The notes beneath the pieces are model-generated. The model was given only the letters and a program-made list of their open reading frames with translations, was not told where the DNA came from and did no database searches. Below are positions 1,310 through 38,382 of a stretch of 47,443 nt of DNA, piece after piece; position 1 is the stretch's first letter, and each line of letters opens with the position of its first letter. The stretch comes from Herpetosiphonaceae bacterium (GTDB taxonomy: Bacteria > Chloroflexota > Chloroflexia > Chloroflexales > Kallotenuaceae). Location of the stretch: positions 1-47,443 of the forward strand of contig JACDGP010000033.1 in NCBI GenBank assembly GCA_013821605.1, in the 5' to 3' direction. Both the position numbers and the translations under genes were made by a program.

Positions 1310-1357
1310 GGTCGATGGTTCGCCAAGCATAATGCTCTGCTCAACGAACCATCACTC

Positions 1358-2805: not shown

Positions 2806-2815
2806 ACCGCAATCC

Positions 2816-3808
2816 CTAGACGTTGATGCGCGAGAAGCGCTGGATCAGCATAAAGGCCAACACTTGCATACCAACAAAGAAGGCGAGCACAATCCAACCC
2901 GGCACGGTGTGGAATAACACATCCAGAAAATGTGGCACGGCACGATTAAGCGTCGCCAGCGCCAGAATCGACAACACCGGCATCAGGTAGCTCGTGAACT
3001 TTGGCTCGGCCATCATGGTCTTGATCTCTTCGGTGGTACGTTGACGCTCGATCAAGGTTTGTGAAAGCGCGCCCATACTCTTGATCAAGTTGCCACCTGC
3101 CACCCGTTGCACCAAGAGCGCCGTAACCATCACTTCCAGGTCGGTGCTCGGCATCCGCTGTTCAAGCGCCTCAAGCGTATCGGTCAGACTACCACCGAGC
3201 CGCACCTCGCGCACGACCAAGCCAAACTCTTCGCGTGCCGGATCGCCGATCTCACGGGCGACTAGCTCAATCGCCCCTTGTAATGATAATCCGGCCCGTA
3301 AAGCGTTCGACATGAGCTCAGCCGCGATGGGCAGTTGGCTCGTAAAGTTCTGCAAGCGCCGGTCACGACGCGAGCGGAGCAGCAGCCACGGTACCACCAC
3401 CGCACTTACGAGTGCAATGATGGCGCTGATAACCGGTCCCTGGGTAAACAGCAGTTCGGCCAGAATATAGCTGACGAGGCCGGTAATAACGATCAAGGCT
3501 AACGCTTCGGAGGGTTTGAGAAACAGGTCGGCATTCTTGAGGCGGGCACGCAAGACCAGCCCCGAGGGCGAGGCATCATAGATGTCACCAATGACCAGTA
3601 CCATCGAACGGCGCTCGGGAACCTCAATGGTTGGGTCGAGCAGCAGTTCTTCGTCCTCGATATCAAAGGCGTCATCCCAGCGCCCTTTGACACCCATCCG
3701 CTTTTTAATATGCCGCGACTGCTGGCGTGCTTCATTAGCGTGGCGCATCCATGAGGTTGCCGCTAACGCCGTTGCAGCCACCGATGCATACAGCCAGGTA
3801 TCGGCCAT
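2816..3808 (-). CDS. tadB: TadB-like pilus platform protein (T2SS GspF family)
   Basis: A 330-residue GspF-family membrane protein, the partner of TadC in the Flp pilus platform. There is a short hydrophobic N-terminus and a pair of membrane segments near residues 110-150 (LALIVITGLVSYILAEL and SAIIALVSAVVVPWLLL). A cytoplasmic helical domain follows with QLPIAAELMSNALRAGLSL and GGNLIKSMGALSQTLIERQR, and two more hydrophobic segments lie at the C-terminus. Its ATG shares one base with the TGA of the upstream VWA gene (TGATG), so the two are probably translationally coupled. Family assignment is secure by motif and neighbours. Confidence 0.9.
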   Translation of the reverse strand: MADTWLYASVAATALAATSWMRHANEARQQSRHIKKRMGVKGRWDDAFDIEDEELLLDPTIEVPERRSMVLVIGDIYDASPSGLVLRARLKNADLFLKPSEALALIVITGLVSYILAELLFTQGPVISAIIALVSAVVVPWLLLRSRRDRRLQNFTSQLPIAAELMSNALRAGLSLQGAIELVAREIGDPAREEFGLVVREVRLGGSLTDTLEALEQRMPSTDLEVMVTALLVQRVAGGNLIKSMGALSQTLIERQRTTEEIKTMMAEPKFTSYLMPVLSILALATLNRAVPHFLDVLFHTVPGWIVLAFFVGMQVLAFMLIQRFSRINV

Positions 3809-5919: not shown

Positions 5920-5926
5920 AGCTACC

Positions 5927-7003: not shown

Positions 7004-7024
7004 GCCCAAACCCCATTGCGTTGT

Positions 7025-9370
7025 TTATTGCTTGAGATCGACGCTAACACCGTAGCTTTCCAAACGCGTCATGCATTGCGGCACATAGCCGGTCGGCACG
7101 AAGCGTCCACGTACCATCTCATCCTGCACACCAGTCTGTTCCCAGCGCCAGATCGGTCGCACCTGCACCGCACCATTTTCGATCCCCAGGACTTCCGAAA
7201 TGTCGAGACAGCGGCGCTGCCCGTCAACTAGCCTGCCAATTTGGACCACAACGTTGAGCGTGCTCGTCATTTGCTCGCGCACGGCAGAGTTCGTGAGCCC
7301 CGACTCGGCAAAGAGAGCCATCGTTTCAAGCCGTGAAAAAGCATCGCGAGGTGAGTTGGCATGCACCGTAGTCATCGAGCCTTCATGGCCGGTGTTCATA
7401 GCTTGCAGCATATCCAATGCTTCGGCACCGCGTACCTCACCGACGATGATGCGATCAGGCCGCATACGCAGCGCATTCCGTACCAACTGCCGGATCGTTA
7501 CCTCGCCATCACCATATTGATCGGGCTGACGCGCTTCAAGCCGCACCACGTGTGATTTGGTCAGGCGCAGCTCGGCCGCGTCTTCGATCGTCACCAGCCG
7601 CTCGTGATCGGGAATAAAGGCCGACAGGGCATTCAGAAAGGTCGTTTTGCCCGACCCGGTACCACCGGAGATCAAAAGATTCAGCTTGCTGACCACACAA
7701 CCCCGCAAGAAGTCGAGCATGGTCTGGGTCAAGGCACCGCGCTCAATCAGCTCATAGCCCGTAAAAGCGGCCGGTCGGAAGCGCCGAATGGTCACAACCG
7801 GCCCTTGCAAGGAAAGCGGATCGATCACGACATTAACGCGCGAACCGTCCGGCAGGCGTGCATCAACCATCGGCGAGGCTTCATCAATACGTCGGCCAAG
7901 CGGTGCGACGATCGTGTTGATGACGTTGAGCAGATGTTGTTCGTCGCGGAACTTGATATGCTCCAACAACTGCATGCGCCCTCCGGACTCGATATACACC
8001 GTATCCGGGCCGTTAATCATGATTTCGGTAATATCCGGGTTTTTGAACAGCTCTACGCCCAGCTCACTTTCGATATAGTGCGGCGTAAACTGCGCGCGCT
8101 CGATACCAACATTATAGCGGCGTAGGCGCGGCAAATCTTTGGGGACCACGCCGGTAGGCGTAAAGTCGCCAAAAACCCGCCCCGTATCACTGACCCCTTT
8201 GTGCTCGTAGACGTAAATATCCTTGAGGATAATATCGCCATGCTTGATGCCTTGAACCTCCGAAATCGAGGTGATCCTACGCTCGCCTCCCGGCAGACGG
8301 CTTTCCTGAATCACAATGTCAATGGCGCTAACCAGCTGTTCACGGATCGCTTGTAAGGGCAACTGGGACGCACCCTCGGCCCACAACACCATCGTTTCGA
8401 GCCGCGAAAAAGCATCAATGGGCGAGTTGGCATGCACGGTAGTCATCGAGCCTTCATGGCCGGTGTTCATGGCCTGCAGCATATCCAGTGCTTCCGCACC
8501 GCGCACCTCACCAACCACGATGCGGTTCGGGCGCATACGCAGCGCATTCCGCACCAACTGCCGGATCGTGATCTCGCCTTTGCCTTCGAGATTGGCCGGA
8601 CGGGCTTCCATGCGCAGCACGTGCGGGTGCACCCGATAGAATTGTAGTTCGGCGGCGTCTTCGACCGTAATAATGCGCTCATCGCTGGGAATAAAGCCGG
8701 AAAGCACGTTGAGCAAGGTTGTTTTCCCCGACCCCGTACCCCCCGAGACCAGAACACTTAACCTAGCCGTAACACAAGCCCGCAGAAAGGCAGCCATATC
8801 TTCGGTCAAGGTCCCATTGCGGATCATATCGTCGACGGTAAAGGGCGTTTTACGAAACCGCCGGATCGTCATCGTCGGGCCGTTAAGCGACAACGGCGGC
8901 ACAATCGCGTTCACGCGCGAGCCATCGGGCAAGCGTGCATCGACCATCGGCGACGACTCATCAATACGTCGTCCCAGCGGCGCGACCACGCGGTCGATAA
9001 TGTGGCGCACATGATCTTCGCTCATGAAGGCTACGTTTGGCTCGCTTTGCAGGACGCCGTTGCGCTCGACAAAAATTGCCTGCGGGCCGTTGACCATGAT
9101 CTCGGTAATGAAAGGGTCGCCGAGCAACTGCTCGAGCGGGCCGAAACCAATCGTTTCGTCCAGGATCGCTTTGGTGATCGCGGTGCGCTCGTTCTGGGTG
9201 ATCAACCGGCCTTCGTCGTTGATCATCTGACCGACCAAAGCTTCTACCCGCGTGCGTAATTGATCGGGCGGCAAGGTCAGGAGGCTTGCCAGGTTCGCTT
9301 CGCGCAGCAACCGATCATGATAGTGTCGAACTAGCTGGTTTTGAACGTGAGTTCGTTCATACGACGCCAT
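7025..9370 (-). CDS. Tandem (two-domain) CpaF/TadA-type pilus ATPase
   Basis: A 781-residue protein containing two complete CpaF ATPase modules in one chain. Module 1 (about 1-400) has the N-terminal helical region, EIMVNGP at 90-96, Walker [10 protein letters not shown] with Lys216, TVEDAAEL, Walker [10 protein letters not shown] (283-291) and TTVHANSP (310-317). Module 2 (about 425-781) lacks the leading helical region but repeats every motif: EIMINGP, Walker A with Lys575, TIEDAAEL, Walker [10 protein letters not shown] (640-648) and TTVHANSP (667-674). The middle regions are nearly identical ([15 protein letters not shown], then [18 protein letters not shown]). Neither module has lost a catalytic residue. 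AGAGGAAG lies eight bases upstream of the ATG. It is the first gene of the leftward Tad operon. Three such chains could in principle form a six-site ring. A sequencing-caused fusion is unlikely because the linker is in frame and carries no stop. Confidence 0.9.
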
Positions 9371-9637
9371 GTTCTGCTTCCTCTTCTTACGGGGAGCGTG
9401 CCCCGCAGGTCAGTTTCTGATGATCCGAACCGCCTGTTAAATGTAGCACAGGTAACGCCATAGCGGAAGAAGGTTGATGCTCATCTTTAACTATTCTTTA
9501 GAAAATGCTGCTGCAAAGTCTAGAGTTGCCATTATAATGGAGAACTGTTGGTATAGCTCCTGCTTAAAATATGGATACCGGTTAGTCCTAATATGTGAAG
9601 CAGAAAGTTAACAGTCGTTGCAGATGGGAATCTATAA
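9371..9637. promoter_or_regulatory. Divergent control region between the two Tad operons
   Basis: This is a 267-base spacer with no gene between the leftward ATPase operon and the rightward DegV-cpaB operon. Near its middle, 9531-9538 reads ATTATAAT, a palindrome that gives a perfect TATAAT -10 hexamer on both strands. No convincing -35 hexamer stands at 17 bases in either direction. The 20-base element of the pilin promoters is not present. It is A/T-rich around 9480-9600 compared with the flanks. The promoter call is weak; that the spacer must drive two operons follows from gene orientation. Confidence 0.4.
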
Positions 9638-10555
9638 ATGGCTGGATACGTCGGAACAGTTGTAACAGACCGGCGCGTGCTCTTGGGAAGCGATATTCAA
9701 GAACAGGTCAACCTTGCCGTACTCCCCCGTAACGTGCGGATCGATGGCCAGTTGGTCGCCAACGACGAGCGCCTTAACGTCGTGCGAGCAATGGCACATA
9801 ATGCGATTGGCCGGGGACGACCACCGGAGGTACTACCTCCCGATCGTGAGCAATTCCTTGGAACGTATCAAGCGCTAGCAGAGCAGCACCCCCACCTCGT
9901 TTCTATTCATTATCTTGCCACCTTAGACGGAGCGGCCCGCGAAGCACGGGTCTGCCACCAGTTAATGCAGCCGGACCAGCAAATCGAAGTCTACGAGGCT
10001 AAAACACTCGAAGGTGGCCTTGATTTTTTACTGAAAAGTACACTTGCGATGCTGGTCGAAGGCGCGACGACCACCCAAGTGCTGGCCCTGCTACGCTACC
10101 TCGAAACACACATGCTCACCTTTCTGCTGACGCCCGGTGCGGTCCAAGCCCAGCCCTGGGCGACGGTCAGCGGTACACATCGTGCACGGAGTATGGTGCC
10201 GGCTACCGAAACGCTCTGGCATTTCGATTCACAGCTACGGCGGCTCGTCCCGGTGCGTCAAAGTGGACAGTTGCATGCCAAGCTTGGCCCACTGCTCCAA
10301 TCACGTTGGAGCATGACGCGCTATGCCATGGTGGTACGCTACCGCGGTTACACACAGAACCAAATTGCCGAGTTAACCGGCAGCTTGCAACGCGCCGGAC
10401 TGGAAGCAGCCCCCCACCTCGAGCCGATTGCGGCAACGTTTTTACCCTGTATGCCCCCCCGCTTCATCGAATTGCTCTTGCTGCCAACCGAAGCAGATAT
10501 GTCACGGCTGCAAGGGCTGATACAAAATCCAATCTGGTGGAAGGGAGCAGCCTAG
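9638..10555 (+). CDS. DegV-like protein at the head of the rightward Tad operon
   Basis: A 305-residue protein whose first ~190 residues follow the DegV fold pattern. There is a short N-terminal strand, then NVRIDGQLVANDE (the strand and loop after the first helix) and PPEVLPPDREQFLGTYQAL (the S/T-Q-P-S-P-x-x-F region of DegV, here with Pro-Pro-Asp). The conserved Ser loop position reads HYLATLDG, and EAKTLEGGLDFLL matches the D-S-x-x-x-S-x-G-x-G segment. Residues 190-305 are a divergent second lobe. DegV proteins bind long-chain fatty acids and, in Firmicutes, act with fatty acid kinase. Several ligand-contacting serines appear replaced here, so fatty-acid binding cannot be assumed. The stop codon abuts the cpaB start (TAGATG), so this is the first gene of the operon. 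Its role in pilus biology is unknown. Confidence 0.6.
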   Translation: MAGYVGTVVTDRRVLLGSDIQEQVNLAVLPRNVRIDGQLVANDERLNVVRAMAHNAIGRGRPPEVLPPDREQFLGTYQALAEQHPHLVSIHYLATLDGAAREARVCHQLMQPDQQIEVYEAKTLEGGLDFLLKSTLAMLVEGATTTQVLALLRYLETHMLTFLLTPGAVQAQPWATVSGTHRARSMVPATETLWHFDSQLRRLVPVRQSGQLHAKLGPLLQSRWSMTRYAMVVRYRGYTQNQIAELTGSLQRAGLEAAPHLEPIAATFLPCMPPRFIELLLLPTEADMSRLQGLIQNPIWWKGAA

Positions 10556-11392
10556 ATGCGCAAGCAGAAACGACGCGGACTGATTTATGGGCTCATGGCC
10601 CTGGTCCTGGCGATCCTTACCGGGTTTCTTTTTACCTCGCGGATCGATGCCCTCCAGCGGCAGATCGGCGATATGCAGCAAGTGGTAGTGGTGAAAACTG
10701 CGATCGCCCCCCGCACGCTGATCACCGCCGATATGTTAGAGACACGCTCTATTCCGCGTGCCTATGCCCATCCTTCGTATATTCAAAGCATGAGCGATGT
10801 CGTCAATCAGCGGGTCGCTGTCGTCTCGCTTACGCCCGACATGATCCTGCGCCAAAACGATGTGGCACCGACCAGCGGGCTGAACGATGGCACACGCGCG
10901 ATCTCGATCGGCGTCAACCCGGTCTCTGTATCGGTTGATAAAGTGGTCGGTGGCAGTCGCGTCGATGTCATCGTCTCCTACGAAACCAGCGAACAAACTC
11001 TGGATCATCAAGAAACCAAGACGAAGCGCACACGCACACTGCTCAGCGATGTTGAGGTGCTTGAAGTCGCCGGTGCACCCATCACTCGGCCTAAGGCGAA
11101 GATCGATACGGGCTCCTCGGGTAACACGACCAATCAGTCGTCCAGCACTGGCCTTGGCATCTTTGGCTCGAATAGTGATACCAGTGGCACCGGCAATAGT
11201 GACACAAGCCTCAATACACCATACGGCCTCCGCGACAAAGTTGTGATTGTGACGCTCAAAGTCAAGCCCGAAGATGCTCAATTGCTGGCGTACCAGGACA
11301 CCTTTGCCACCGATATTCGGCTCTCCTTACGGCGTTCGGATGACCGTGAGATCAAGCCCCTCTCACCGACCAACGAGGAGGACTTTCGATAA
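10556..11392 (+). CDS. cpaB: CpaB/RcpC-like Flp pilus assembly protein
   Basis: A 278-residue protein with one N-terminal membrane anchor (LIYGLMALVLAILTGFLF) and a SAF-type domain (about 40-105). The SAF domain contains VVVKTAIAPRTLITADMLE, SIPRAYAHP and QRVAVVSLTPDMIL, which are typical of CpaB/RcpC. The C-terminal half (about 115-270) carries a Ser/Thr/Gly/Asn-rich insert at about 185-225 before the last strands (DKVVIVTLKVKPEDAQLLAY). In diderm bacteria CpaB contacts the secretin. No secretin gene is present here, so the protein probably acts at the cell envelope in another way, perhaps with the cell wall. It starts directly after the DegV-like stop and its TAA overlaps the next ATG (TAATG). 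Confidence 0.87.
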   Translation: MRKQKRRGLIYGLMALVLAILTGFLFTSRIDALQRQIGDMQQVVVVKTAIAPRTLITADMLETRSIPRAYAHPSYIQSMSDVVNQRVAVVSLTPDMILRQNDVAPTSGLNDGTRAISIGVNPVSVSVDKVVGGSRVDVIVSYETSEQTLDHQETKTKRTRTLLSDVEVLEVAGAPITRPKAKIDTGSSGNTTNQSSSTGLGIFGSNSDTSGTGNSDTSLNTPYGLRDKVVIVTLKVKPEDAQLLAYQDTFATDIRLSLRRSDDREIKPLSPTNEEDFR

Positions 11393-26427: not shown

Positions 26428-26592
26428 CTAAAGAGCGGCGGCTTGTTTCTGAGGGGATGACACTGGCTGCGTCCTCGAAACCATAGGCGGTATGACCGCC
26501 GCCCAATCGCGAATATTGCACGCGGCGTTGTAGTCCGCATTGGCAGCATAGGAGCACGCTACACAGTGGAAGCTCGCCTGATTTGGACGGTT
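26428..26592 (-). pseudogene. C-terminal remnant of a TnpB (IS200/IS605-type) gene
   Basis: About 55 codons resemble the end of TnpB/OrfB. NRPNQASFHCVACSYAANAD is followed by YNAACNI, matching the zinc-ribbon end of the family (CxxC, then ADxNAAxNI). The first Cys pair of the ribbon and the whole RuvC-like nuclease domain are missing. Upstream on this strand the frame runs into DNA that, on the other strand, codes for an HsdM remnant. It is a dead fragment of an insertion sequence. Confidence 0.7.
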
Positions 26593-26889
26593 CCGTGACC
26601 GATCTGCCTTCGAGCGTGAGATCGATACGGCGACGAAAAGTGCACGCATCAGCCTCCCGACGCCGCTTCGCAAACTGATCCTAGCCGCGTTGAGCGAGCG
26701 CGAAGTGTTGCCCCATGTGCCTGAGGCGTGGATCAACAGGGCAGTCCGTGACCACAAAGACGGCGGCGTGGGCAGGATCGGCTATGAGATCAACTTCAAC
26801 CGTTACTTCTACCAGTACCAACCGCCGCGCCCGCTTGAGGAGATCGACCGCGAGATCAAGGGGTTGGAAGCGGAGATTCTTGAGCTACT
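26582..26889 (+). pseudogene. HsdM C-terminal remnant (type I DNA methyltransferase), main piece
   Basis: The plus-strand frame from 26582 reads like the C-terminal region of a type I restriction N-6 adenine methyltransferase subunit. FRDRSAFEREIDTATK and LPTPLRKLILAALSER match the helical part, then EREVLPHVPEAWI and GYEINFNRYFYQYQPPRPLE match the C-terminal signature. Between ALSER and EREVL about 40 residues of the usual protein are absent, so there is an internal deletion. There is no start and no methylase motif. After LEAEILELL (26889) the similarity stops abruptly; the missing last residues appear at 27953-28003. The sequence was interrupted by about 1.07 kb carrying toxin-antitoxin genes. 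Confidence 0.72.
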
Positions 26890-27068
26890 ACATCACTGCG
26901 GGCGGCGCGCTCCTTGAAATAATCGATGGTTCGTAAAACAGCAAGCTTTTCGGCTACTGCCACATTGATAAACTGGTTGATGGACGTTCCTTCCTCCTCA
27001 GTTACTTTCTTCAATTCCTCCATGATTGAGGACTGCAGCCGAAGGGCATAATTCGCTTGTGTTTTCAT
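26856..27068 (-). pseudogene. Ribbon-helix-helix antitoxin, truncated at an insertion boundary
   Basis: A 70-codon frame begins with an intact ribbon-helix-helix (HicB/Arc-like) antitoxin: YALRLQSSIMEELKKVTEEE, then GTSINQFINVAVAEKLAVLR. A very strong ribosome-binding site (two AGGAGG-like runs) precedes the ATG. From about residue 59 (base 26892) the protein reads into the antisense of the HsdM remnant, so the normal C-terminus, and any toxin gene that followed, is lost. The DNA-binding part could still be made and repress its promoter. It lies 21 bases after the broken DUF3368 toxin gene. Confidence 0.65.
26864..26889 (+). repeat. 26-base direct repeat, left copy (hsdM end)
   Basis: TTGGAA-G-CGGAGATTCTTGAGCT-A-CT matches 27959-27984 with two mismatches (at the separated letters). 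Both copies code for L-E-x-E-I-L-E-L-L of the HsdM C-terminus. The similarity to the antitoxin C-terminus stops right beside this copy, marking the left boundary of a 1.07 kb insert. Confidence 0.8.
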
Positions 27069-27089
27069 GGACTTATCCTCCTTTCCTCC

Positions 27090-27574
27090 TTATGCTTCAC
27101 CTGCTAACGCCAAAATACGGTGCCGAATATCGTTTGATAGCCACATCCCAGCCGTGCTTAGTCGTTCGATGAATGGCTCGATCGTTTCAGTCAATCCGTG
27201 GGCTTTCGCTTCGAGTAAGACCTTCAGCGTTCCCATACGGTAAGGCCAGCTGCTTGTGCGGTACGCCGAGCTAATTGGTCACCAAGCAGGATGATTCGTG
27301 TCGGATTTTCAAGTGTTAGGGCGATTGCCGCTCGCTCACCGGCACCTAGATCTAAAGACAACCATTCTGATGGTGTTACCTGTGGGTCAATCACACTTAA
27401 CCACGAGTATGTTCTTAGTTGAGGAACCTCATAGCCGCGTCGCTGCCCCTCATCCAGCTCGTGTACAACGGCCGTCGGGACCCAAATCTCATCAAATAAG
27501 CGGGGTAACCAGTCGATAGCTTGGATGCGGTACAAGTACAGTAATGGCGACGTATTGCTAATGGCGTACGGCAT
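27090..27574 (-). pseudogene. DUF3368 PIN-domain toxin with a one-base frameshift
   Basis: A DUF3368 PIN-like toxin of about 160 residues. The ATG at 27574 begins MPYAISNTSPLLYLYRI, with the PIN acidic first position replaced by the family's SNTSP motif, then LFDEIWVPTAVVHEL, LDLGAGERAAIAL and IILLGDQLARRTAQAAGLTVW. There the frame meets a stop after WER. Reading one base over restores the expected TLKVLLEAKAHGLTETIEP and the family C-terminus GMWLSNDIRHRILALAGEA, ending at 27090. The missing base is most simply one G of a run near 27239. The upstream UPF0175 antitoxin is intact. A sequencing or assembly error in the G run is the alternative explanation. Confidence 0.82.
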
Positions 27575-27575
27575 G

Positions 27576-27821
27576 CTACTGTTCCAAATCCCGTAGCTCT
27601 GCCTCAAGCGGAAACACCTGGTAGCGACCAAGTGTGAGCAAAAACTCGACACGCGGCATGCCAGCAAGGTCCGCAGCGCGTCCCGATGACAGGCGACCCA
27701 ATTCGTAGAGTTTCACTGCCGCTAAGACGCGTACTTCGCGTGCAAACGCGACCTCATCAGTCTTTTCGGCCAGGAGTACCTTTTCAGGAATATCGAGTAC
27801 AACTTGTCGTGTTGCCATCAT
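27576..27821 (-). CDS. UPF0175-family antitoxin
   Basis: An 81-residue UPF0175 protein (RQVVLDIPEKVLL, then FAREVRVLAAVKLYELGRLS and GRAADLAGMPRVEFLLTLG), the usual partner of DUF3368 PIN toxins. The helix-turn-helix-like segment SGRAADLAGM suggests DNA binding and autoregulation. The ATG at 27821 has AGAGGTG just upstream; a GTG at 27827 and an ATG at 27818 are alternatives. Its stop lies one base before the toxin ATG, so the pair is a tight operon. As the toxin gene is frameshifted, this may now be an orphan antitoxin. Confidence 0.82.
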   Translation of the reverse strand: MMATRQVVLDIPEKVLLAEKTDEVAFAREVRVLAAVKLYELGRLSSGRAADLAGMPRVEFLLTLGRYQVFPLEAELRDLEQ

Positions 27822-27952
27822 GCTCACCTCTTAGCATGATTCTACACCACTCGACCCCGGAATTGTCACATACCAGGTCGTCATCCGTATGAGTTGTAAC
27901 CTATGCAATACTCGTGCTATGAAGAAGACTGCTGACGAAGCCTACAGGCGCC

Positions 27953-28003
27953 ATCGCTTTGGAAACGGAGATTCTTGAGCTGCTGCGGGAGGTGGCGGGG
28001 TAA
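27953..28003 (+). pseudogene. HsdM last-16-codon remnant
   Basis: The frame IALETEILELLREVAG followed by TAA at 28001-28003 is the natural end of the HsdM protein whose main remnant is at 26582-26889. It repeats the LExEILELL codons already present there (direct repeat at 27959-27984), then adds the missing REVAG end. Together the two pieces show that about 1.07 kb now sits inside an old hsdM end. Confidence 0.6.
27959..27984 (+). repeat. 26-base direct repeat, right copy (hsdM end)
   Basis: This is the right-hand copy of the repeat at 26864-26889, with two mismatches. It marks the right edge of the insert that carries the UPF0175/DUF3368 pair and the truncated antitoxin. Confidence 0.8.
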
Positions 28004-28016
28004 GATGGGTAAGCGA

Positions 28017-28638
28017 CTATGGCAGTCGAGCTAGCAAGGCAGTAGGGGTGAGGATAGGAATAGGGGCGTGTGCAAAATCATCTGGATTACGAGTTACGAT
28101 CCCATCAAATCCCCCTTGCATCGCAACTGCGATCTGTACATTATCCTCAAAATCATCGCCTGGAAGGAGTAAGGCTTGCTCAAGCACAGCACGATCAACA
28201 GGGGCAAATAGCAAAGGTAGGAAGACATAGCTCTACGGCTTGTAGGGCAGCGGCGCGGCCTATACTTCGGCGGGCAATGTAAAAAATATCGGTGAGGGTT
28301 GAGGCCACAAGGGAACCTACAACACGCACCAGCACGCTCGACAGTTTTTCTTTATCCTCAGCGGCACGGCAAGTTTCCAACTCGGTGAGCAGATCGTTAC
28401 GCTCATGGCGCAGCAAGGCATTGAAGTGCCGCCTGAAATTGTGCATCAGATACGAAACAGCTCTAGTGATCCAATTGAGTTTCTCGTGATTTCCCAGCCA
28501 CCCACGCAAGGTGATCGAGTGACGGCTGACGACAAGGGAGAGGATGTATTTCAGCCATGATCGAGCAACAAGACAATGTTCTTGCAACTGCTGCTCACGC
28601 GTGGCAACCGTACCTGCGTAGTTAGTTTTCGACTGCAT
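28017..28638 (-). pseudogene. PIN-domain toxin remnant joined to an unknown N-terminus, frameshifted
   Basis: From the ATG at 28638 (GGAGGT four bases upstream) about 105 residues match nothing I know (MQSKTNYAGTVATREQQ and on; Arg/His/Leu-rich, helical). The protein then becomes a PIN-toxin middle part, VASTLTDIFYIARRSIG, and stops after FAICPC at 28195. One base over, the next frame continues as the PIN C-terminus: PVDRAVLEQALLLPGDDFED, then NVQIAVAMQGGFDGIVTRNP and PIPILTPTALLARLP, ending at 28017. An extra C in a CCCC run near 28200 explains the shift. The first catalytic Asp region of the PIN domain is missing, so this is dead even without the shift. The N-terminal part may belong to a different, truncated gene. 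Confidence 0.65.
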
Positions 28639-28765
28639 TGCTACCTCCAAATCGTGTGCATCATGCTATACTCGCACCTGCATGATTCAATCCCCACCCT
28701 GAACACCGTGTCGCACAGTATCAGTGGCGTAAAATGTTGACGAATAAGAACTTTACGGGAGACGT

Positions 28766-31700
28766 ATGAGCACGATCGGTGGATACCAGATTATCCGACC
28801 TTTGGGACAGGGCGGCATGGGCAAAACCTTTTTAGTCCAAGATCCCCAGATCTCCCGACAAGTCGTGGTCAAGATCATTTCACTTCCTCCATCTACAGAT
28901 AAAGATGCACTACAAGGGATTTGGAACCGCTTCTTCCGTGAGGGTCAGGCCGGCGGGCAGTTGATGCATCCCAATATCGTCGTGGTGCATCGCCTTGATA
29001 CTGATGATGTATTTGGCCCATATATCGTCATGGAATATGTAGCAGGGACAACCCTCGGAGTATATGAGCCACCAAACTTGCTTAGTCTGCTTGATATTGC
29101 CAGCCAGATTACACAAGCATTGTATTTTATGCATGCCCGCCCTACGCCTATAGTTCACCGTGACTTGAAACCGGATAATGTTTTCCTCACTGAACAGGAA
29201 AGGCTTTCAACAAGCACTGGCAGTCCCACGACGCACATGGTTGCGAAAGTGGGCGACTTTGGATTAGCTCAATTCAGAACACTGCAGACAGCTGGAGAAA
29301 CCGAAAGTGGACACTTCATGGGGACGTGGCCCTATGCTTCGCCTGAGCAGATGGCGAGTGCCGCTGATGTTGATCAGCGTACAGATTTATATGCACTGGG
29401 GATGATGCTATATGAGAAGATCGCTTTATCCTATCCCTCAGCCTATCAACCATTTTTAGGACATCGCCTGACTGCATCCGACCGTGAGGCAGTACGTGTT
29501 GTCAAAAGTGTGCTTCCGCCACCGCCGAGTCTCATCCGTCAGCAGGTTGTATCTGATCCAAATGTTCAATGGAATATCCCGCCGCAGCTCGATGATCTTG
29601 TGCTGAAGCTGCTTCAGCCAAATCCTGATGATCGTTACCAGAGCGCACCTGACGTGTTTAAGGACCTGTCACGCATTCAGACAGGCCTCCAACAATCACC
29701 CGCACGTTCCCCATCAACGCTACCACCCGTTGCCTCTAAGCCAGTCGACAGTGCTCCACCCAGCACGTTCATCGGCACCCCTACGACTCCACCGCGTGGC
29801 TATCTTGAGCCAACTGACCTCATGCGGGCACGTGGTATCGATCAAGTACGCCGCATATTCTATGAACTTGGATATAACGTCGTTGATACACCGCTTAATA
29901 TTGCGACTAGTGACTGGCATACCGCATCACGTTCCAATGTTCGTCGGGCCTTCTGGATCGCAGAACACTTTACCGACATCACACCGTTTGGGATCGTTTT
30001 GTTTGAGGTTGATGACCTTTCGGCGTCTGCGCTCCAATCACTTGCGCGTGACCTACTCCGGGGTGGTGGTACATTTCTGTTTATCGCCGTTGCACCAACC
30101 AGTAGTCCGACAGGTGAGGAGATTTATGATCACCTCGTGCTAATCTGTCCCCAGCGTGACACCACTCCTGATAAAGTCAGGTTGCTACGCTTGGACATTG
30201 ACACTGCTCGGCCAACACGGCATGCTCTTGATGTATTGGGTGACATCGCATTACCGAGCCCAACGCCTGCACCAGACGAAATCTATAACCGTATCGTGTC
30301 GGCGTTCAACATCGAGGTCATCACTAAACGTTTCTATCGTGACTACGCGAAAATGTTTAACGACCTCGTGGAACAGGTGCGAATAACTAATCTAGCGGTT
30401 GCAGCATTCGATGATCCGCAAGAGGTCAAGGGCTTCGTGCAGCGTTTGCTTGGACGCCTCATGTTCCTCTACTTCTTACAAGAAAAAGGATGGCTAGGGG
30501 GCGATCAAGAGTTCCTGACAACGCAGTTTCGCTTAGTGGATGGGAAAGCTGCTAACTATTACCGCGATCTCCTCGTACCGCTGTTCTTCCAAGCACTCGC
30601 ACGTCCTGAACAGGAGCGCAATCATGATCCCGATGCAGGGCCAGTCTGGAGCCAAGAGGATATTCCATTCTTAAATGGTGGTCTGTTTGAGCTTGGGGTT
30701 GGTCAGGAATATGAGCCAACACTTTTCATCAACAACGTATTGTTTGCACCCGATGATCGTGGCCCGTTTGCCTTTAGCACAGGCGAACAAGGCGGCGTCC
30801 TCGCCTTTTTCAACCGCTTTGCCTTCACTGTCGAGGAAGACACACCAGAGGAAATTGCTGTCTCACTCGACCCAGAGATGCTCGGTAAAGTATTCGAAGA
30901 ACTGATCACTGGACGGCATGAAACAGGCAGCTACTATACTCCCCGTCCCGTTGTTGCCTTTATGGGCCGCGAAGCACTCAAAGGTCATCTGCGTACCCGT
31001 TTACCGAATACAGTATCAGACGAAGCGATTACGCAGTTTGTTGAGGAACGCGATCCGTCGGGACTAAAACGTTCAGCAGAAGATGCGTTGGAAGCTATAC
31101 GTAACATCGCTGTGTGCGATCCAGCATGTGGTAGTGGAGCTTACCTGCTTGGAATGATGCAGGAATTGTTTGCCCTGCGTATGGCTCTGCTACGTGCTGA
31201 CGAGCAAGATGCTGAAACAGCCTATCAACGCAAACTAGACATCATCCAGCGTAACCTATATGGCGTCGACAACGATCCGTTTGCAGTAAATATCGCCCGG
31301 CTGCGTCTCTGGCTTTCGCTTATCGTGGATTACCAGGGGAAGAACCCGCCCCCTTTGCCGAACTTGGACTACAAAATCATGGTCGGTGACTCGCTCGTAG
31401 AGACGATCAACGGAGAATCGCTGATTGCTGGGGTAGCAGCGACGAAAGAGATTGTTCAGCGCGAAGCCGTCGCTGGGGAGCGTGCGGAGTTACAAGCCGA
31501 GTTCGAGCGTGAGCGTGAGAAGTTATTTGACTTTGATGGAACGACCGAGGAGCGCCGCAAACTCAAAGAACGTCTGCTCGATCTTGAACAAGCGTTGATG
31601 CGGGTAGTGCTCGCCGGGCAGCGTGACAAGCTAGAGCAGCGCGAACAAGAAATTTTGAGCAAGACAGACTGGAGCATTCCAAGTCGTGCGACAAAATATC

Positions 31701-33226
31701 GGCGCGAACTCAAGGCCATTGAAGCGAAGCGCAATGTGATTGAAGAGATCGATCGCCAAGTCAAACGGGAGCATCGCCGTCCGATCTTCCCCTGGCATCT
31801 CTACTTTACTGAGGTCTTCGGCGGGAGAGAACGCAACCCTGGCTTCGATATTGTACTGGCTAATCCACCGTATGTACGGGCGGATGCCCAGTATCGTCAT
31901 TTGAGCGACAATGAGACCAACCGATTGGAGGCAGTTGGGCGCTGGCAGACCTACCGAGCGATGTTAGTCGAGAGTGGCCTCTATGAGACACTCTATGAAA
32001 AGTGGGATCTGTATATCCCATTCCTGGAACGTGCCCACCAACTCCTACGCCAGGGCGGGCAAATGATCTTTATTATCCCCGACGCGTATAATGCCGCGAA
32101 ATACACCCGCAAATCGCACGACTTCTTCCTGAGCGAAAGTCGCATTGCGCGCCTTGATTTCTGCTCGGAGATTCCCCTATTCGAAGGCGTAAGCGTTTGG
32201 AACACGATCCTGCACTTCGCCAAAACAACGCCGTCTTCACCTGATGTACCGCTACGTATCCGGCGCTGGGGGAAATCTTCCCGTGAATTTACCGCTAACA
32301 GTGAGACACTTCCTACTGGGCCGCAAAAGGATCTTGGCCAAGCTACCTTCCGCTATGATCGTGAGCAAGCGCAAAAAATGGCGGTTGACACAATACCTTT
32401 AAGGAAAATTTGCTACATGAGTAAAGGCATGGTTATTCATGCTGATGAACGGCGATATTTAGGAGCTTTCAAAACAGAAGATGTTATTTCTGCTGTGAAA
32501 GACAGTTTACATCCGAAACCATTTATACAAGGAAGAGACATTGCGAAGTGGGTAGCTGAGCGCATCCAGTATTTAGAATGGGGTACAGAACGTGCGCCAG
32601 GGATGTTTCGACGTCAAACTTTTCCTGAACTCTATTCGGTTCCTGAAAAGTTTATAACAATGGACATCGGAAGTGAAGAACTAAAGGTGGTGTATGACGA
32701 CGAACAACTACTACACAATCACTCAGCCTCGTCTGTGGTACTTTGGCATTACCTTAGCGGCGTGAGAAATAAATCAATACGTAAATCTGCTAAATACCAT
32801 GATGAATTCAAACCCTCTCAGAAGCCTGACTTCTTTCGCGAGGATCTTGAGGCTATATCAAAGGCTTTCATTCCCAAATACATAATAGCAATCATGAACT
32901 CCTCATTTGCACGAGTTTTTGTAAATCAGAGGAGGAAGAGTACACTCAACATCTACCCCGACGATTGGAAACCCTTACCTATCGCTGTAATTCCAAAGGA
33001 TGAACAACAAGGGTTTGTAGCACTTGTTGACGCCATCCTGGAAGAGTATGCAGTGTCTGGTTATCCATTGCCTACGGATGTAGCGGTACGCGTCGTAGCA
33101 CTTGAACAAGAACTTAATCGCAAGGTCTACGACGTTTATGGGGTGACGCCGGATCAAGTCTCAACGCTCGGTGTGGACCAAGCTGCAACGACTGACATCG
33201 ACGATGAGACAGAGGACGAGGAATAG
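28766..33226 (+). CDS. Ser/Thr kinase fused to Eco57I-type N6-adenine DNA methyltransferase
   Basis: A 1486-residue fusion. Residues 5-305 are a complete Hanks-type kinase: Gly loop GQGGMG (14-19), Lys36, Glu59, HRDLKPDN (131-138), DFG (164-166) and SPE (192-194). A Pro/Ser linker (310-348) follows, then an alpha/beta region of unknown function (350-500). The methyltransferase (about 505-1160) has SYYTPRPVV, motif I DPACGSG (785-791), a charged helical insert (895-1000) and the catalytic motif NPPY (1033-1036). A target-recognition region occupies about 1195-1420. Expected action: methylates a DNA site in the host genome, while the kinase phosphorylates a partner, possibly under phage attack. 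GGGAG precedes the ATG. The next gene begins on the base after the stop. No nuclease motif was seen here; cleavage would come from the partners. The kinase-methylase fusion is unusual in my knowledge. Confidence 0.9.
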   Translation: MSTIGGYQIIRPLGQGGMGKTFLVQDPQISRQVVVKIISLPPSTDKDALQGIWNRFFREGQAGGQLMHPNIVVVHRLDTDDVFGPYIVMEYVAGTTLGVYEPPNLLSLLDIASQITQALYFMHARPTPIVHRDLKPDNVFLTEQERLSTSTGSPTTHMVAKVGDFGLAQFRTLQTAGETESGHFMGTWPYASPEQMASAADVDQRTDLYALGMMLYEKIALSYPSAYQPFLGHRLTASDREAVRVVKSVLPPPPSLIRQQVVSDPNVQWNIPPQLDDLVLKLLQPNPDDRYQSAPDVFKDLSRIQTGLQQSPARSPSTLPPVASKPVDSAPPSTFIGTPTTPPRGYLEPTDLMRARGIDQVRRIFYELGYNVVDTPLNIATSDWHTASRSNVRRAFWIAEHFTDITPFGIVLFEVDDLSASALQSLARDLLRGGGTFLFIAVAPTSSPTGEEIYDHLVLICPQRDTTPDKVRLLRLDIDTARPTRHALDVLGDIALPSPTPAPDEIYNRIVSAFNIEVITKRFYRDYAKMFNDLVEQVRITNLAVAAFDDPQEVKGFVQRLLGRLMFLYFLQEKGWLGGDQEFLTTQFRLVDGKAANYYRDLLVPLFFQALARPEQERNHDPDAGPVWSQEDIPFLNGGLFELGVGQEYEPTLFINNVLFAPDDRGPFAFSTGEQGGVLAFFNRFAFTVEEDTPEEIAVSLDPEMLGKVFEELITGRHETGSYYTPRPVVAFMGREALKGHLRTRLPNTVSDEAITQFVEERDPSGLKRSAEDALEAIRNIAVCDPACGSGAYLLGMMQELFALRMALLRADEQDAETAYQRKLDIIQRNLYGVDNDPFAVNIARLRLWLSLIVDYQGKNPPPLPNLDYKIMVGDSLVETINGESLIAGVAATKEIVQREAVAGERAELQAEFEREREKLFDFDGTTEERRKLKERLLDLEQALMRVVLAGQRDKLEQREQEILSKTDWSIPSRATKYRRELKAIEAKRNVIEEIDRQVKREHRRPIFPWHLYFTEVFGGRERNPGFDIVLANPPYVRADAQYRHLSDNETNRLEAVGRWQTYRAMLVESGLYETLYEKWDLYIPFLERAHQLLRQGGQMIFIIPDAYNAAKYTRKSHDFFLSESRIARLDFCSEIPLFEGVSVWNTILHFAKTTPSSPDVPLRIRRWGKSSREFTANSETLPTGPQKDLGQATFRYDREQAQKMAVDTIPLRKICYMSKGMVIHADERRYLGAFKTEDVISAVKDSLHPKPFIQGRDIAKWVAERIQYLEWGTERAPGMFRRQTFPELYSVPEKFITMDIGSEELKVVYDDEQLLHNHSASSVVLWHYLSGVRNKSIRKSAKYHDEFKPSQKPDFFREDLEAISKAFIPKYIIAIMNSSFARVFVNQRRKSTLNIYPDDWKPLPIAVIPKDEQQGFVALVDAILEEYAVSGYPLPTDVAVRVVALEQELNRKVYDVYGVTPDQVSTLGVDQAATTDIDDETEDEE

Positions 33227-36200
33227 ATGCCGTTCATCCCGCCGGATTATATCGACAACAGCCAGATCTCATTGGGAACGGTGCTGAACCGACTGATCGT
33301 TGAGATGGAGCAACACGAGGCGGCCTTCGCTAGCGGCTATTTTGAGCCACGCGTATGGCGGATGATTGGTGCCGCACTACAACGACTTATGCGCTTCCGC
33401 TTGCTGTTAGGTCGCCAACCAGAGATCGATTTGCCGCACAATGATCTGATTAGTCTGCGCAGCTACTATCGTCATAAATTACAGGGTGATCTCGAAACAC
33501 TGCAATTCAATGCCATGCATGTCCAGCTTGTCGAAGAGCTTGTTGCCTTTCTCCAGCGGAGTGATGTCGAGGTGCGGCTGTTCAGTGGTCCCTTTCTGCA
33601 CGCCAAAGCCTATATCTTTCCCCATTATGCCATTGTGGGCTCATCGAACTTTACGCCCTCGGGCCTCAATAACAATGCTGAACTAAATCTGGTAACGAGC
33701 ACACAAGCTATCGCGCGCGACCTATTAGAGAATTGGTACGAACGTCAATGGCTGCAAGGTGCCAACTATAAGCCTGAACTGATTGGAGTCTTGGAGGCAT
33801 CGAAGTTTGGTAGCCGCGCCTGGACGCCCTATGAAGTGTTTATCAAGGCGCTGTATGAGTATTATCGCGGACGCTTAACCCCAGAGAGCGATGGAAGTGG
33901 AGTGCTTGATCTCGCCGTCTTTCAACACGAGGGGTTACAAGAAGCCATCCGCCTACTTGATCGTCACAACGGTGTACTCGTCGCCGATGCAGTTGGGCTT
34001 GGCAAGACTTTTATCGGGCTAGGACTGCTAGAGCACTATCTCATCAATCAACGTCAGCGTGGTCACATTCCTCAAGGGCTTGTGATCTGCCCAGCACAGC
34101 TGCGCAACACAGTGTGGGAACCAAGGCTACGCGAATACCAAATTGCGGTACCCATCGTGTCCATGGAAGAGTTAGGACGCACGGAATTTCCTTGGAAAGA
34201 ATATTACAACGTCGACTTTGTGCTCGTAGACGAAAGTCACAATTTCCGCAACCCAGCTACAACGCGCTACCGGAATCTTTTCCGGCTCGTTGCGGCAGGT
34301 AAGCGCGACAAGCGGGTGGCCTTATTAACAGCTACACCGATCAACAATACGATTTGGGACTTGTATCATCAAATGATGCTGTTAGCTAAGGGTGAGGAAA
34401 CCGCCTACCGTGAGATTGGCGTCGCTAATCTCCGTGGCTTTTTCGCACGGGTGGATAAAGGTGAAGCCGAACTCTTCGATTTGCTTGAATCGACCACCGT
34501 ACGTCGCAGTCGGCGTGACATTCAGCACCGCCAGGAAGCCGGCGAACAGGTGGTGATCAATGGCACGGAGATACGTTTTCCAGAGCGTCGGCTAAGCACA
34601 ATCACGTATGACCTCGATGGTTCCTACGCCGGATTCTATCGAGAAATCGCAAGGGACATTGATCGATTAACGCTGGTCTCGTACAACATTGAGCAATTTC
34701 ATACGGGAAAGCATGAGCAAACAACCATTGATCGCAACAATGCCATCATCGGTATCTTCAAAACCCTGCTGCTCAAACGCCTTGAAAGCAGTATTCTAGC
34801 CTTCGAGAACAGTGTTCGACGACAACAACACTTCCAACGCCGCTTTTATGATGTACTGACGCAACACAATCGGCTCCTCAGCAGTGGAGTTCACCGCCGT
34901 GAGTTGGCACTCCTGGCAGCCCTAGATGAGACAGCCGATAAAGAGACTGATGCTACACTCGAAAAAGCGCTGACTGGCCTCCCTAGTGCACACACGCAAG
35001 AGTATGATCTCCCAACGCTTAAGCAAAAGCTTGAGATTGACCTCGCAATCTTCGATGGCTTGCTTGCACGGCTTGACCACATTCGACAGAGCACACAAAA
35101 AGGGCATGTCCATGACGACAAATTGGAACAGGTCAAGCTTGCATTAGCGGCACCACCCCTGCACGGCAAAAAAACGCTGATCTTCAGCTACTACGAGCAG
35201 ACGGCCCGTTATCTCTACGAATCACTGCGTGACGATGCCCAATGGCAAGCAACGGTAGGTAGTCTACGACTGGCTTTGTTAACAGGGCGGAATAACGCAG
35301 CAGAACGCAAGTCAATCATTGAACGCTTTGCTCCCCGTGCGAACGGACAAGGTAACGTCAGCGATGAGATTGATATGCTGATATCTACTGATGTGCTTTC
35401 GGAGGGGCAAAATCTGCAAGATGCAGCGGTGCTGATCAACTACGATCTCCATTGGAATCCAGTGCGGATGATCCAGCGGGCCGGGCGAATTGATCGCGTC
35501 GGTTCGCCTCATGCCGAGCTCCTGATTGTCAACTGTTTTCCAGAGGAGGAACTGGAACGACTACTGGGCTTGATTGCCCGTCTTCAAGTACGAATTACTG
35601 CGATTGGGCGTAATCTCGGTAATGATGCCTCTATTTTAGGTGAAGTTGTTACCGAGAAGAGTTTGGATGAACTGAAGCGGTTGCGCGCTGCCGATCAAAG
35701 CGTGCTTGATGACCTCGCGGCAGAAGAAGAGGTTTGGCTGAGCAGCGATGATATGCGTTTACCGCTTGTCGCTTATATGCAAGCTCTAGGTGAGGATGTG
35801 GTGCGTGACATCCCTATGGGTATTCATAGTGGACGGAGCCATCAATCATTCAACGGCGTTTTCTTCGCATTTCGTACACGTGAACGTCAATTCTGGCGCT
35901 TATATGAGACTCACGGTGGCTTGCTCCAAGAGTCACCCATTACGGATAAACGTCGTATATTTCAGATGATTGCATGTGGCCCCCAAACGCCACGTGTTAT
36001 ACCTAAACATCTGATTTGGTCCTATCTTGAGCGTGCCACAAAAGATATTCTTACTGAGCTACAGCAACAACAGGGCACACAGCGACTTCCACCACCTATG
36101 AGTCGGGTGAATTATCGACTGTATAACGTCCTAGAAGCGACTCGCTCCAAAGCCATCAGGCATCATACTGTGTCTCTCAACGGTGCAAAGACAGATGTTA

Positions 36201-36481
36201 TGAATCGTCTCCTGGTGACCTTGCAGCGCGTATCACTTAAGCCATTTGAGCGCGATCCAGAGTTACGCAGCATCTTAGATGCTGAGCGCCGAGGGGTTGA
36301 TGTGGACGAATGGATGGTTGATCTTGATGCTTTCATTGTTGATCGCGGGCTAGCTGCCGAATTTGAGATGCGCCCCGCCACTTTTGCGGCAATTAAAGCC
36401 GAAGACCTTGAGTTAGTATGTTACGAACTTTTTTCGATGACAACTGAGGAGGAGCATGATGCCAGTCAAGGCATACGTTAG
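33227..36481 (+). CDS. PLD-nuclease / SNF2-like helicase, defence-operon protein
   Basis: A 1084-residue protein. The N-terminal phospholipase D-type nuclease domain (about 20-180) has one HKD motif: HAKAYIF (His125, Lys127) followed by GSSNFTPSG (138-146). Superfamily 2, SNF2-like helicase motifs follow: I DAVGLGKT (Lys260), II DESH (335-338), III TAT (368-370), IV LIFSYYEQTA, V TDVLSEGQNL, and VI QRAGRIDR (750-757). The final 300 residues are of unknown fold. A single HKD implies dimerisation to build a cleavage site. It starts directly after the methylase stop, so the genes are coupled, and overlaps the NERD-FHA gene by 26 bases. The likely role is DNA translocation and cleavage of unmodified invading DNA. 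Catalytic residues are intact. Confidence 0.9.
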   Translation: MPFIPPDYIDNSQISLGTVLNRLIVEMEQHEAAFASGYFEPRVWRMIGAALQRLMRFRLLLGRQPEIDLPHNDLISLRSYYRHKLQGDLETLQFNAMHVQLVEELVAFLQRSDVEVRLFSGPFLHAKAYIFPHYAIVGSSNFTPSGLNNNAELNLVTSTQAIARDLLENWYERQWLQGANYKPELIGVLEASKFGSRAWTPYEVFIKALYEYYRGRLTPESDGSGVLDLAVFQHEGLQEAIRLLDRHNGVLVADAVGLGKTFIGLGLLEHYLINQRQRGHIPQGLVICPAQLRNTVWEPRLREYQIAVPIVSMEELGRTEFPWKEYYNVDFVLVDESHNFRNPATTRYRNLFRLVAAGKRDKRVALLTATPINNTIWDLYHQMMLLAKGEETAYREIGVANLRGFFARVDKGEAELFDLLESTTVRRSRRDIQHRQEAGEQVVINGTEIRFPERRLSTITYDLDGSYAGFYREIARDIDRLTLVSYNIEQFHTGKHEQTTIDRNNAIIGIFKTLLLKRLESSILAFENSVRRQQHFQRRFYDVLTQHNRLLSSGVHRRELALLAALDETADKETDATLEKALTGLPSAHTQEYDLPTLKQKLEIDLAIFDGLLARLDHIRQSTQKGHVHDDKLEQVKLALAAPPLHGKKTLIFSYYEQTARYLYESLRDDAQWQATVGSLRLALLTGRNNAAERKSIIERFAPRANGQGNVSDEIDMLISTDVLSEGQNLQDAAVLINYDLHWNPVRMIQRAGRIDRVGSPHAELLIVNCFPEEELERLLGLIARLQVRITAIGRNLGNDASILGEVVTEKSLDELKRLRAADQSVLDDLAAEEEVWLSSDDMRLPLVAYMQALGEDVVRDIPMGIHSGRSHQSFNGVFFAFRTRERQFWRLYETHGGLLQESPITDKRRIFQMIACGPQTPRVIPKHLIWSYLERATKDILTELQQQQGTQRLPPPMSRVNYRLYNVLEATRSKAIRHHTVSLNGAKTDVMNRLLVTLQRVSLKPFERDPELRSILDAERRGVDVDEWMVDLDAFIVDRGLAAEFEMRPATFAAIKAEDLELVCYELFSMTTEEEHDASQGIR

Positions 36482-37529
36482 CCGTGATTCTGCAGGACGC
36501 CCCTGGCCCCCAGACCATAGTCACGAAACGACTGCTGCGATTGAGTTAGTGCGACAACTTTGGCTAGTTTTTAACCATCAGCCCGCTACCTATGCAATTC
36601 TCGCTAATCTTCATCAACCCAATGCGGACCTCGTTATCATTACTGAGCGAGGTATTGGTGTGGTTGAACTCAAGCATTACCCTGGACATATTGCTGGTGG
36701 GGCGAAGGACACTTGGTACGCCGATACAATACCAATTAAAGCAGGCTCTGCCTATACCAACCCGCACGACCAAGTTCAGTCATATGCCAACCAGCTACGT
36801 CAGCAAATGATGTCAAGCCTCTCAGCGTGGTGGCTGCTCAGTGACCGGCCACTATGGGGTAAGTTCAAAATCCATACCGCTGTTTGTTTTACACATCCCA
36901 ATGCTGTGATCGATGATGCAACCCGTTCCCTTGAACGGACACGCCAACGGTTTACCTATCAAAAGTCATGGGAACGTTTTCGCATTCTATCGCCCGACAA
37001 GTTTACTGATTGGGTTGTGGCGTTGCGATTTGAGGTGGATCAAGGACGAACAAGAAACTTCGAAGCGTACCATCTTACCGGAGGCCAGATCGTTGATGTA
37101 GCGACGCGCGTACTTAGGGGAACAGAATGGAGCGAGATCAACAGTCTTATGCCTACTGGTCAACCCTATGCATACCTATCAGTACGTGAGAATGGCATCC
37201 CAATCTTATCGCTAAGCCTTGACCGTGAGGAGAACATCCTCGGTCGCGATGCTCAGCAGTGTAATCTCGTCATCCCTGACAAATACAGCCGGGTAAGCCG
37301 TGCCAATGCTCGTATATCCCGTACGATTGAAGGCATCTTTATCGAAGACCTTGGGAGCCGACATGGAACATTTGTTAATGGTCGACGTATTACCGCTCGC
37401 CAAAGGCTAGTCGATGGACAACAGATTATGCTTGGTGGTATGGATCAAAGCGACAAAGTGTGTTTACTGGAATTCTCGCTTAAGCCGAAGACGACGGCAA
37501 AGACCTACACGAGTTCCGAGGAACGATAA
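36456..37529 (+). CDS. NERD nuclease-like / FHA phosphothreonine-binding protein
   Basis: A 357-residue protein. The N-terminal NERD domain (about 25-190) has the nuclease-like core DLVIITERGIGVVELKHY, with Asp58, Glu71 and Lys73 in the PD-(D/E)xK order. The C-terminal FHA domain (about 240-335) has LGRD, SRANARIS and GSRHGTFVNG. The usual His of the FHA SxxH motif is Asn284, but the Arg, Ser and Asn that contact phosphothreonine are in place. GAGGAGG precedes the ATG, which lies inside the helicase gene. With a kinase encoded two genes earlier, the FHA domain is the natural reader of its product. Pgl/BREX type 2 PglW combines NERD and kinase in one protein; here the parts are shuffled. Confidence 0.88.
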   Translation: MMPVKAYVSRDSAGRPWPPDHSHETTAAIELVRQLWLVFNHQPATYAILANLHQPNADLVIITERGIGVVELKHYPGHIAGGAKDTWYADTIPIKAGSAYTNPHDQVQSYANQLRQQMMSSLSAWWLLSDRPLWGKFKIHTAVCFTHPNAVIDDATRSLERTRQRFTYQKSWERFRILSPDKFTDWVVALRFEVDQGRTRNFEAYHLTGGQIVDVATRVLRGTEWSEINSLMPTGQPYAYLSVRENGIPILSLSLDREENILGRDAQQCNLVIPDKYSRVSRANARISRTIEGIFIEDLGSRHGTFVNGRRITARQRLVDGQQIMLGGMDQSDKVCLLEFSLKPKTTAKTYTSSEER

Positions 37530-37906: not shown

Positions 37907-38382
37907 TTACCACGCCGCGTCGTGCTGCTCCATGACGCCGTAGGCTTCGCGAAGTGCGATATCACCGGGCAGGGTACCCGTGAAGGTGCCGAAGGGCTGG
38001 TGATATTGGGAGCGCACCAGCAGCAGATTATCGCGCCGCGTCCTCACCGCTTCCGCCTTGAAATGTACGGTTGCGTCTTCGCTGGAAGCGACGAATGACA
38101 AGTCTTCGGCAAAGGCAACTGGCCCGACCTCGTGCGGTACGCCGTCGATCCACACGCTGCGCTCGCTGTTGTGTGGGGCGTCGTTCAGGCCCACGATCAC
38201 GCTCCAGGCCACGGCTCGGTTCATCGTATCGTAGCCGGCACCCCCGCTCCAATACCAATGCGTATGGCGCCGGTGATAGCCGGCGTTGTCATGCGGAACA
38301 AGGGCATACGTTGGGGCGGGAGCGGGATGGTGCGGGGCCGGTCACTGCCGTCACCACGGTAGGGCTGGGTCAACGTTGGCAT
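37907..38382 (-). pseudogene. Decayed gene, DUF2804-like C-terminal part
   Basis: An ATG at 38382 with AGGAGG upstream opens a frame (MPTLTQPYRGDGSDRPRT) that ends within about 60 codons. In another frame, WYWSGGAGYDTMNRAVAWSV leads to VIVGLNDAPHNSERSVWIDG, then RRDNLLLVRSQYHQPFG and LREAYGVMEQHDAAW. This C-terminal part is like the end of DUF2804-type proteins, which are about three times longer. The N-terminal stub, a frameshift and a missing middle make it a pseudogene. The family label is my best guess. Confidence 0.45.

Follow-up and report, generated by a model that had tools for sequence, protein, structure and literature searches.

The stretch of DNA analyzed here, 47,443 nucleotides from a contig of a Herpetosiphonaceae bacterium, is referred to below as the window. 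It contains three adjacent intact open reading frames (ORFs) that run head to tail on the forward strand and together span positions 28766 to 37529 (Table 1). The original prediction had described three intact, closely packed genes encoding a Ser/Thr kinase fused to an N6-adenine methylase, a PLD nuclease fused to an SNF2 helicase, and a NERD-FHA protein. The ORFs are indeed intact, adjacent, and on the same strand, Pfam searches return all of these domains, and the residues singled out at the time (Lys36 and NPPY of ORF 1, His125 and Lys260 of ORF 2) are present in the sequence.

Table 1. Features of the three-gene block and its borders (positions are those of the window)
Feature	Positions	Strand	Description or basis
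ORF 1, kinase-methylase	28766-33226	+	1486 aa, intact
Ser/Thr protein kinase domain, PknB-like (ORF 1 residues 1-310)	28766..29695	+	Pfam Pkinase, PknB-family structures, catalytic motifs
Pro/Ser/Thr-rich linker (about ORF 1 residues 311-344)	29696..29797	+	Sequence inspection
N-terminal alpha/beta domain of methylase (about ORF 1 residues 345-600)	29798..30565	+	Normal for the methylase family; present in relatives without kinase
Eco57I/MmeI-type N6-adenine methylase core and C-terminal target-recognition region	30566..33226	+	Pfam Eco57I, motifs
Shine-Dalgarno-like GAGGACGAGG	33214..33223	+	Extreme end of ORF 1, a few bases 5' of the ORF 2 start; codes for the acidic ORF 1 tail
ORF 2, PLD (HKD) nuclease domain fused to SNF2/RapA-like helicase	33227-36481	+	1084 aa, intact
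Shine-Dalgarno-like GAGGAGGAGC for ORF 3	36446..36455	+	Within the last ORF 2 codons
ORF 3, NERD-FHA protein	36456-37529	+	357 aa, intact
Left debris	26428..28650		TnpB C-terminal fragment, probable hsdM C-terminal fragment, UPF0175 antitoxin with probable PIN toxin, PIN_3 fragment, cupin
Truncated DUF2804 gene	37907..38341	-	Only the C-terminal part is left; lies where the low-GC block ends on the right; Pfam

The kinase domain of ORF 1 (Pfam Pkinase, residues 7 to 292, 3e-30) contains all the catalytic motifs, namely GQGGMG at position 14, Lys36, HRD at 131 (HRDLKPDN), and DFG at 164. It is an ordinary Chloroflexota PknB-type domain, 32 to 42% identical to many others. In an alignment with 14 relatives, the normal N terminus of the methylase family starts at about residue 345 of ORF 1, indicating that the kinase sits on a complete methylase. 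The N-terminal domain of the methylase has an AF2 model with a pLDDT of 83. The domain was considered as an active PD-(D/E)XK nuclease fused to the methylase, as in type IIG enzymes. Comparison with PDB folds gives no significant match, only weak restriction-endonuclease-like ones with Z scores under 5, and no invariant catalytic D/E/K set is seen among the 14 aligned relatives. The catalytic part matches the Pfam Eco57I methylase (residues 830 to 1131, 8e-26), has intact DPACGSG (785) and NPPY (1033) motifs, and finds its best PADLOC match in the type IIG REase_MTase profile (1.2e-59).

ORF 2 consists of a PLDc_2 domain (residues 30 to 175), which includes His125, and the SNF2 and Helicase_C domains, with Lys260 in the GLGKT motif at 257. 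Its best PADLOC match is C3a139, "HKD+Snf2" (7.5e-70); the HmaA profile matches as well (1.9e-23). ORF 3 combines a NERD domain (residues 41 to 146, 1e-11) with an FHA domain (residues 261 to 327, 7e-15). The NERD motif NADLVI...VVELK at positions 56 to 73 includes Asp58, Glu71, and Lys73, and the FHA domain has the motifs LGRD (262) and RVSR (279). The AF2 model of ORF 3, built from two sequences, has a pLDDT of 39.

As the original prediction stated, ORF 1 and ORF 2 are separated by 0 bases, and ORF 2 and ORF 3 overlap by 26 bases as called. The aligned relatives of ORF 3 begin with MPV, so translation probably starts at 36459, which reduces the overlap to 23 bases. Shine-Dalgarno-like sites for ORF 2 and ORF 3 are embedded in the respective preceding genes and point to coupled translation. 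Both ORF 1 and ORF 2 end in an acidic tail that contains Thr. These tails were considered as docking sites for the FHA domain and dropped as evidence, because in each case the tail is the translation of the Shine-Dalgarno-like sequence for the following gene; moreover, a Thr-acid motif is frequent at the C termini of the relatives.

In the stretch from 27 to 38 kb, the GC content drops to some 0.51, from values of 0.57-0.62. GC3 is similarly low in all parts of the block (0.48 in the kinase, 0.51 and 0.47 in the two halves of the methylase, 0.51 in the helicase, and 0.46 in NERD-FHA, versus 0.62 to 0.74 in the flanking genes), suggesting a single origin or a long residence together. Judged from its sequence, the three-gene block is a horizontal acquisition. 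The DUF2804 remnant at its right edge was possibly severed when the block arrived or was rearranged. On the left, the toxin and transposon debris noted in the original prediction is recognized by Pfam, together with the cupin, in the form of the antitoxin, a PIN fragment, and a partial TnpB, the TNB match of the latter being slightly short of the cut-off, whereas the hsdM fragment (26582 to 26917) was recognized by eye and has no Pfam match. The larger ORFs tested outside the block are of the housekeeping type (secretion, ABC transport, two-component, and redox proteins). A search for an empty insertion site found no relative of the flanking DUF1835-like protein in the other 59 sampled genomes of the order.

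The methylase and the PLD-SNF2 helicase form a pair that is found far beyond this genome. Scanning of the genome collection with ORF 2 retrieved 548 related stretches, and at about half of the best 80 of these loci a methylase matching that of ORF 1 adjoins the helicase. Dozens of contigs from many phyla carry the pair, among them archaeal, plasmid, and viral as well as bacterial ones. In Nostoc, Calothrix, and Deinococcus plasmids, the methylase comes first, then variable small genes, then the helicase, and in the cyanobacterial plasmids a small HTH regulator precedes the methylase. Neighbors of the plasmid cassettes include a viperin gene in one case, VapC toxin-antitoxin pairs in another, and also DUF262. 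The original prediction suggested a search of PADLOC, which recognizes the helicase as C3a139 and the methylase as type IIG, and thus models the core in part; relatives receive the same names. As a widespread restriction-modification-like pair, the core is not new, and both ABC-ATPase- and DUF499-centered systems have been described with an HKD nuclease, an SF2 helicase, and a methylase (PMC10853773, PMC12839542, PMC7641849).

Several other loci show variants of these genes. The same host genome encodes two more pairs of a PLD-helicase-like protein and an Eco57I-type methylase (L139, positions 4798 to 11278, on contig C128, and L140, positions 290 to 6966, on contig C211), with the helicase first and no kinase domain detected. 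Three cyanobacterial loci (L012, L013, and L014) have a PLD-SNF2 helicase with no methylase of the ORF 1 family beside it and with a sigma-70 factor gene directly 5' of it. Ktedonospora formicarum carries two methylase/PLD-helicase cassettes on one contig (L021 and L081); in one, the helicase is split into several frames, and the intact one is followed by a NACHT protein and an integrase. NERD genes are found in 40 of 50 genomes of the helicase relatives, a genome-wide count that is not tied to the loci, and the NERD domain of ORF 3 as query finds none in the 80 helicase loci. On the Nostoc plasmid pANSO36A, a protein combining NERD, phosphonate-binding, and staphylococcal-nuclease domains (L161, positions 7040 to 9487, reverse strand) is encoded four genes 3' of a methylase/PLD-helicase cassette.

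Among the known systems, the closest likeness is to the cassettes of an HKD/PLD-SNF2 helicase and an N6-methylase (PADLOC C3a139), which share the helicase-nuclease architecture, the adjacent adenine methylase, and the mobile and defense-rich contexts. ORF 2 has the PLDc_2, SNF2, and Helicase_C domains of such helicase-nucleases, and the N6-adenine methylase next to it, in ORF 1, belongs to the family found in the relatives' cassettes. By its genes, the locus fits this class, with restriction as the predicted function; it differs in adding a kinase fused to the methylase and a NERD-FHA gene. The CxC systems, centered on an ABC-ATPase, are comparable in their HKD plus SF2 helicase and methylase components (PMC10853773), but neither an ABC-ATPase nor a DndE partner is encoded among the three genes of the window.

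DUF499 is the defining gene of the BREX-related (Hma) systems, and PglZ is the defining gene of BREX. The host genome, which is 99.6% complete, has no match to DUF499 (PF04465) or PglZ (PF08665), whereas a positive control genome for the former and control genomes for the latter were matched. The pairing of an HKD-SNF2 helicase with an N6 methylase, both found in the window, is also characteristic of the DUF499-centered Type-2 BREX-related, or Hma-like, systems (PMC12839542), and together with the HmaA match of ORF 2 (1.9e-23) it could mean that the locus is a degenerate or reduced descendant of such a system that lost its ATPase. This origin appears very improbable, as DUF499 is found nowhere in the genome, the best match of the helicase is C3a139 and not HmaA, that of the methylase is type IIG, and no DUF499 protein is annotated with the pair in plasmid relatives. 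DUF3780, another part of the Hma-like comparison, did not turn up in the island.

BREX type 2, or Pgl (PglX, PglW), resembles the locus in combining an adenine methylase with NERD and Ser/Thr kinase domains. However, PglW has NERD and kinase in one protein, whereas in the window the kinase is attached to the methylase and NERD to the FHA protein, and the NCBIfam PglW model, whose cut-off is 990 bits, gives the ORF 1 kinase a score of 36 bits. Class 1 DISARM shares a methylase, an SNF2 helicase (ORF 2 matches DrmD at 1.5e-34), and a PLD domain, which is fused to the helicase here but is a separate protein, DrmC, in DISARM. No DrmA or DrmB could be assigned among the larger ORFs of the window, the only DrmA match being a helicase-level one of ORF 2 (1.4e-15), and BrxC is absent from the window. 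The earlier statement that PglZ, BrxC, DrmA, and DrmB are missing thus holds for the window and, in the case of PglZ, for the whole genome. In comparison with MADS (MAD6 kinase, MAD2 methylase), the kinase part of ORF 1 (5e-30) and the NERD part of ORF 3 (3.7e-9) both match MAD6, but they lie on two different proteins, and the scores of 104.6 and 35.6 bits are far short of the cut-off of 460. The only other MAD matches in the window are generic, ATPase-type mad3 and mad8 matches on transporter and secretion ATPases. KKP (kinase-kinase-phosphatase, with FHA on PfkB), a phage-defense system in which an FHA-bearing kinase is involved (PMC11341870), shares with the locus an FHA domain and a Ser/Thr kinase. 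However, it consists of two kinases and a phosphatase, with no nuclease or methylase in the system as described.

All relatives of the pair seen so far lack both the kinase fusion and NERD-FHA. In 400 Chloroflexota genomes, a query spanning the kinase and the N-terminal domain of the methylase found no fused protein among the matches listed, save the window itself. In methylase searches of 400 Chloroflexota genomes, of 158 genomes from the class, and of 292 cyanobacterial genomes, the frames are no longer than 1298 aa except for one of 1456 aa, an indirect indication by frame length. That exception (in genome G023) was examined as a second kinase fusion and ruled out, as it has no kinase domain; kinases close to the PLD-helicase in L038 and L044 are separate genes. 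Within the sets named, which were capped and hold one genome per species, the trio is known from the window alone. The kinase on the methylase and the NERD-FHA gene beside such a pair each appear to be unique among the genomes sampled, which agrees with the earlier remark that their association is unusual. The claim of a distinct, recurring three-gene system has fared worse: within this sampling the gene order is seen only in the window, an outcome that the original prediction itself had named as a refutation, and selection on the three genes as a unit thus finds no support. The core pair is widespread.

The methylase and the helicase also differ in their closest relatives. In local alignments, from which all identities were taken, the closest methylase is 45% identical over 1027 aa, and the C-terminal half of the ORF 1 methylase is about 53% identical to the methylases of genomes G130 and G162 and 50% identical to that of G112. 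In the genomes with the closest methylase, the PLD-helicase is only 28% identical (G130) or was not seen. Conversely, the closest helicases are 47 to 51% identical, and the methylases paired with them, where available, 30 to 34%. Hence, the operon was probably built from parts with different histories. Such a mosaic history weakens the case for a long-standing three-gene unit and is compatible with a recent functional one.

Another Chloroflexota order has full-length relatives of ORF 3 (32 to 42% identity), present in 7 of the 111 genomes searched. There, the family (L196 to L201 and L133) is encoded near cell wall and metabolic genes: the adjoining genes are LysM/M23, L,D-transpeptidase-like, phosphoesterase, or sulfatase-maturation-like, with the transpeptidase-like and sulfatase-maturation-like assignments made by eye. 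No kinase, methylase, or PLD-helicase is present near these genes in the available stretches, three of which are contigs of only 4 to 5 kb. No ORF 3 relatives were found on plasmids or phages, and scans of viral contigs gave no matches to ORF 1 or ORF 3.

The locus might be an ordinary two-gene restriction-modification-like cassette, in which the kinase was fused by chance and NERD-FHA is a passenger with a role of its own. This possibility is a substantial one, even if we do not favor it. It is in line with the absence of kinase fusions and NERD-FHA from all relatives of the pair seen, with the existence of NERD-FHA as a stand-alone family elsewhere, and with the abundance in Chloroflexota of kinases of the ORF 1 type, an ordinary domain that need not signal to ORF 3. 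However, the kinase is fused in frame and its catalytic residues are intact in a protein of 1486 aa, and the NERD-FHA gene overlaps its neighbor and shares the composition of the block. In our judgment, which we do not quantify, an operon is unlikely to combine a phospho-writer with a phosphothreonine reader by accident.

The reading that we prefer, and hold with about even confidence, is that of a horizontally acquired, mosaic, restriction-modification-like defense cassette, to whose core a phosphorylation branch has been added. It draws on the integrity of the genes, their motifs, the coupled gene order, the common composition, and the recurrence of the core pair; every biochemical step is an extrapolation from these. 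Homology makes the role of the core likely: the Eco57I-family methylase would mark a host sequence by N6-adenine methylation, and the PLD-SNF2 protein would load on or move along unmarked DNA and then cut it. We infer the branch, from kinase to FHA-bound NERD, as follows. The N-terminal kinase, being tied to the methylase, would also be tied to its DNA-recognition state and would act on meeting unmarked or invading DNA; its target could be the kinase itself, the linker, the helicase, or some further protein. Docking on the resulting phosphothreonine, the FHA domain of ORF 3 would bring or release the NERD nuclease, which would serve as a second, possibly suicidal, DNase. With a kinase to write phosphothreonine, an FHA domain to read it, and the NERD active-site residues present, this is the simplest use of the parts.

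Such an arrangement would be a split version of the single-chain combination of NERD and Ser/Thr kinase that occurs in PglW and in some DndF proteins, where it has been interpreted as a back-up or suicidal effector (PMC12839542, PMC10853773). By analogy, the PglW, DndF, and KKP precedents lend support to the phosphorylation branch as an idea. It is a rather doubtful proposition, although one worth entertaining, that the locus is a restriction-modification-like system actually gated by protein phosphorylation, i.e., a methylase with its own kinase and an FHA-NERD reader that together make a split-chain counterpart of PglW without the BREX core.

A kinase carried by a methylase could also modulate methylation, in which case ORF 1 would be a regulatory methylase, a phosphorylation-controlled epigenetic switch, and the operon would not serve defense. 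We consider this very unlikely, given that its partner, the PLD-SNF2 protein, is an effector of the restriction type and that the relatives are found in mobile and defense-rich regions.

Kinases accompany methylase-based defense in Pgl/BREX type 2, MADS, and some DndF systems. The window keeps the parts separate: the kinase is joined to the methylase, and NERD to the FHA reader. If the proposed branch is real, each of its steps could be mutated alone, so that one could test directly what phosphorylation contributes to restriction; if it is not, the locus illustrates how such cassettes collect domains. Going by the encoded domains, this locus may represent a widespread type of anti-invader cassette in a form that phosphorylation controls.
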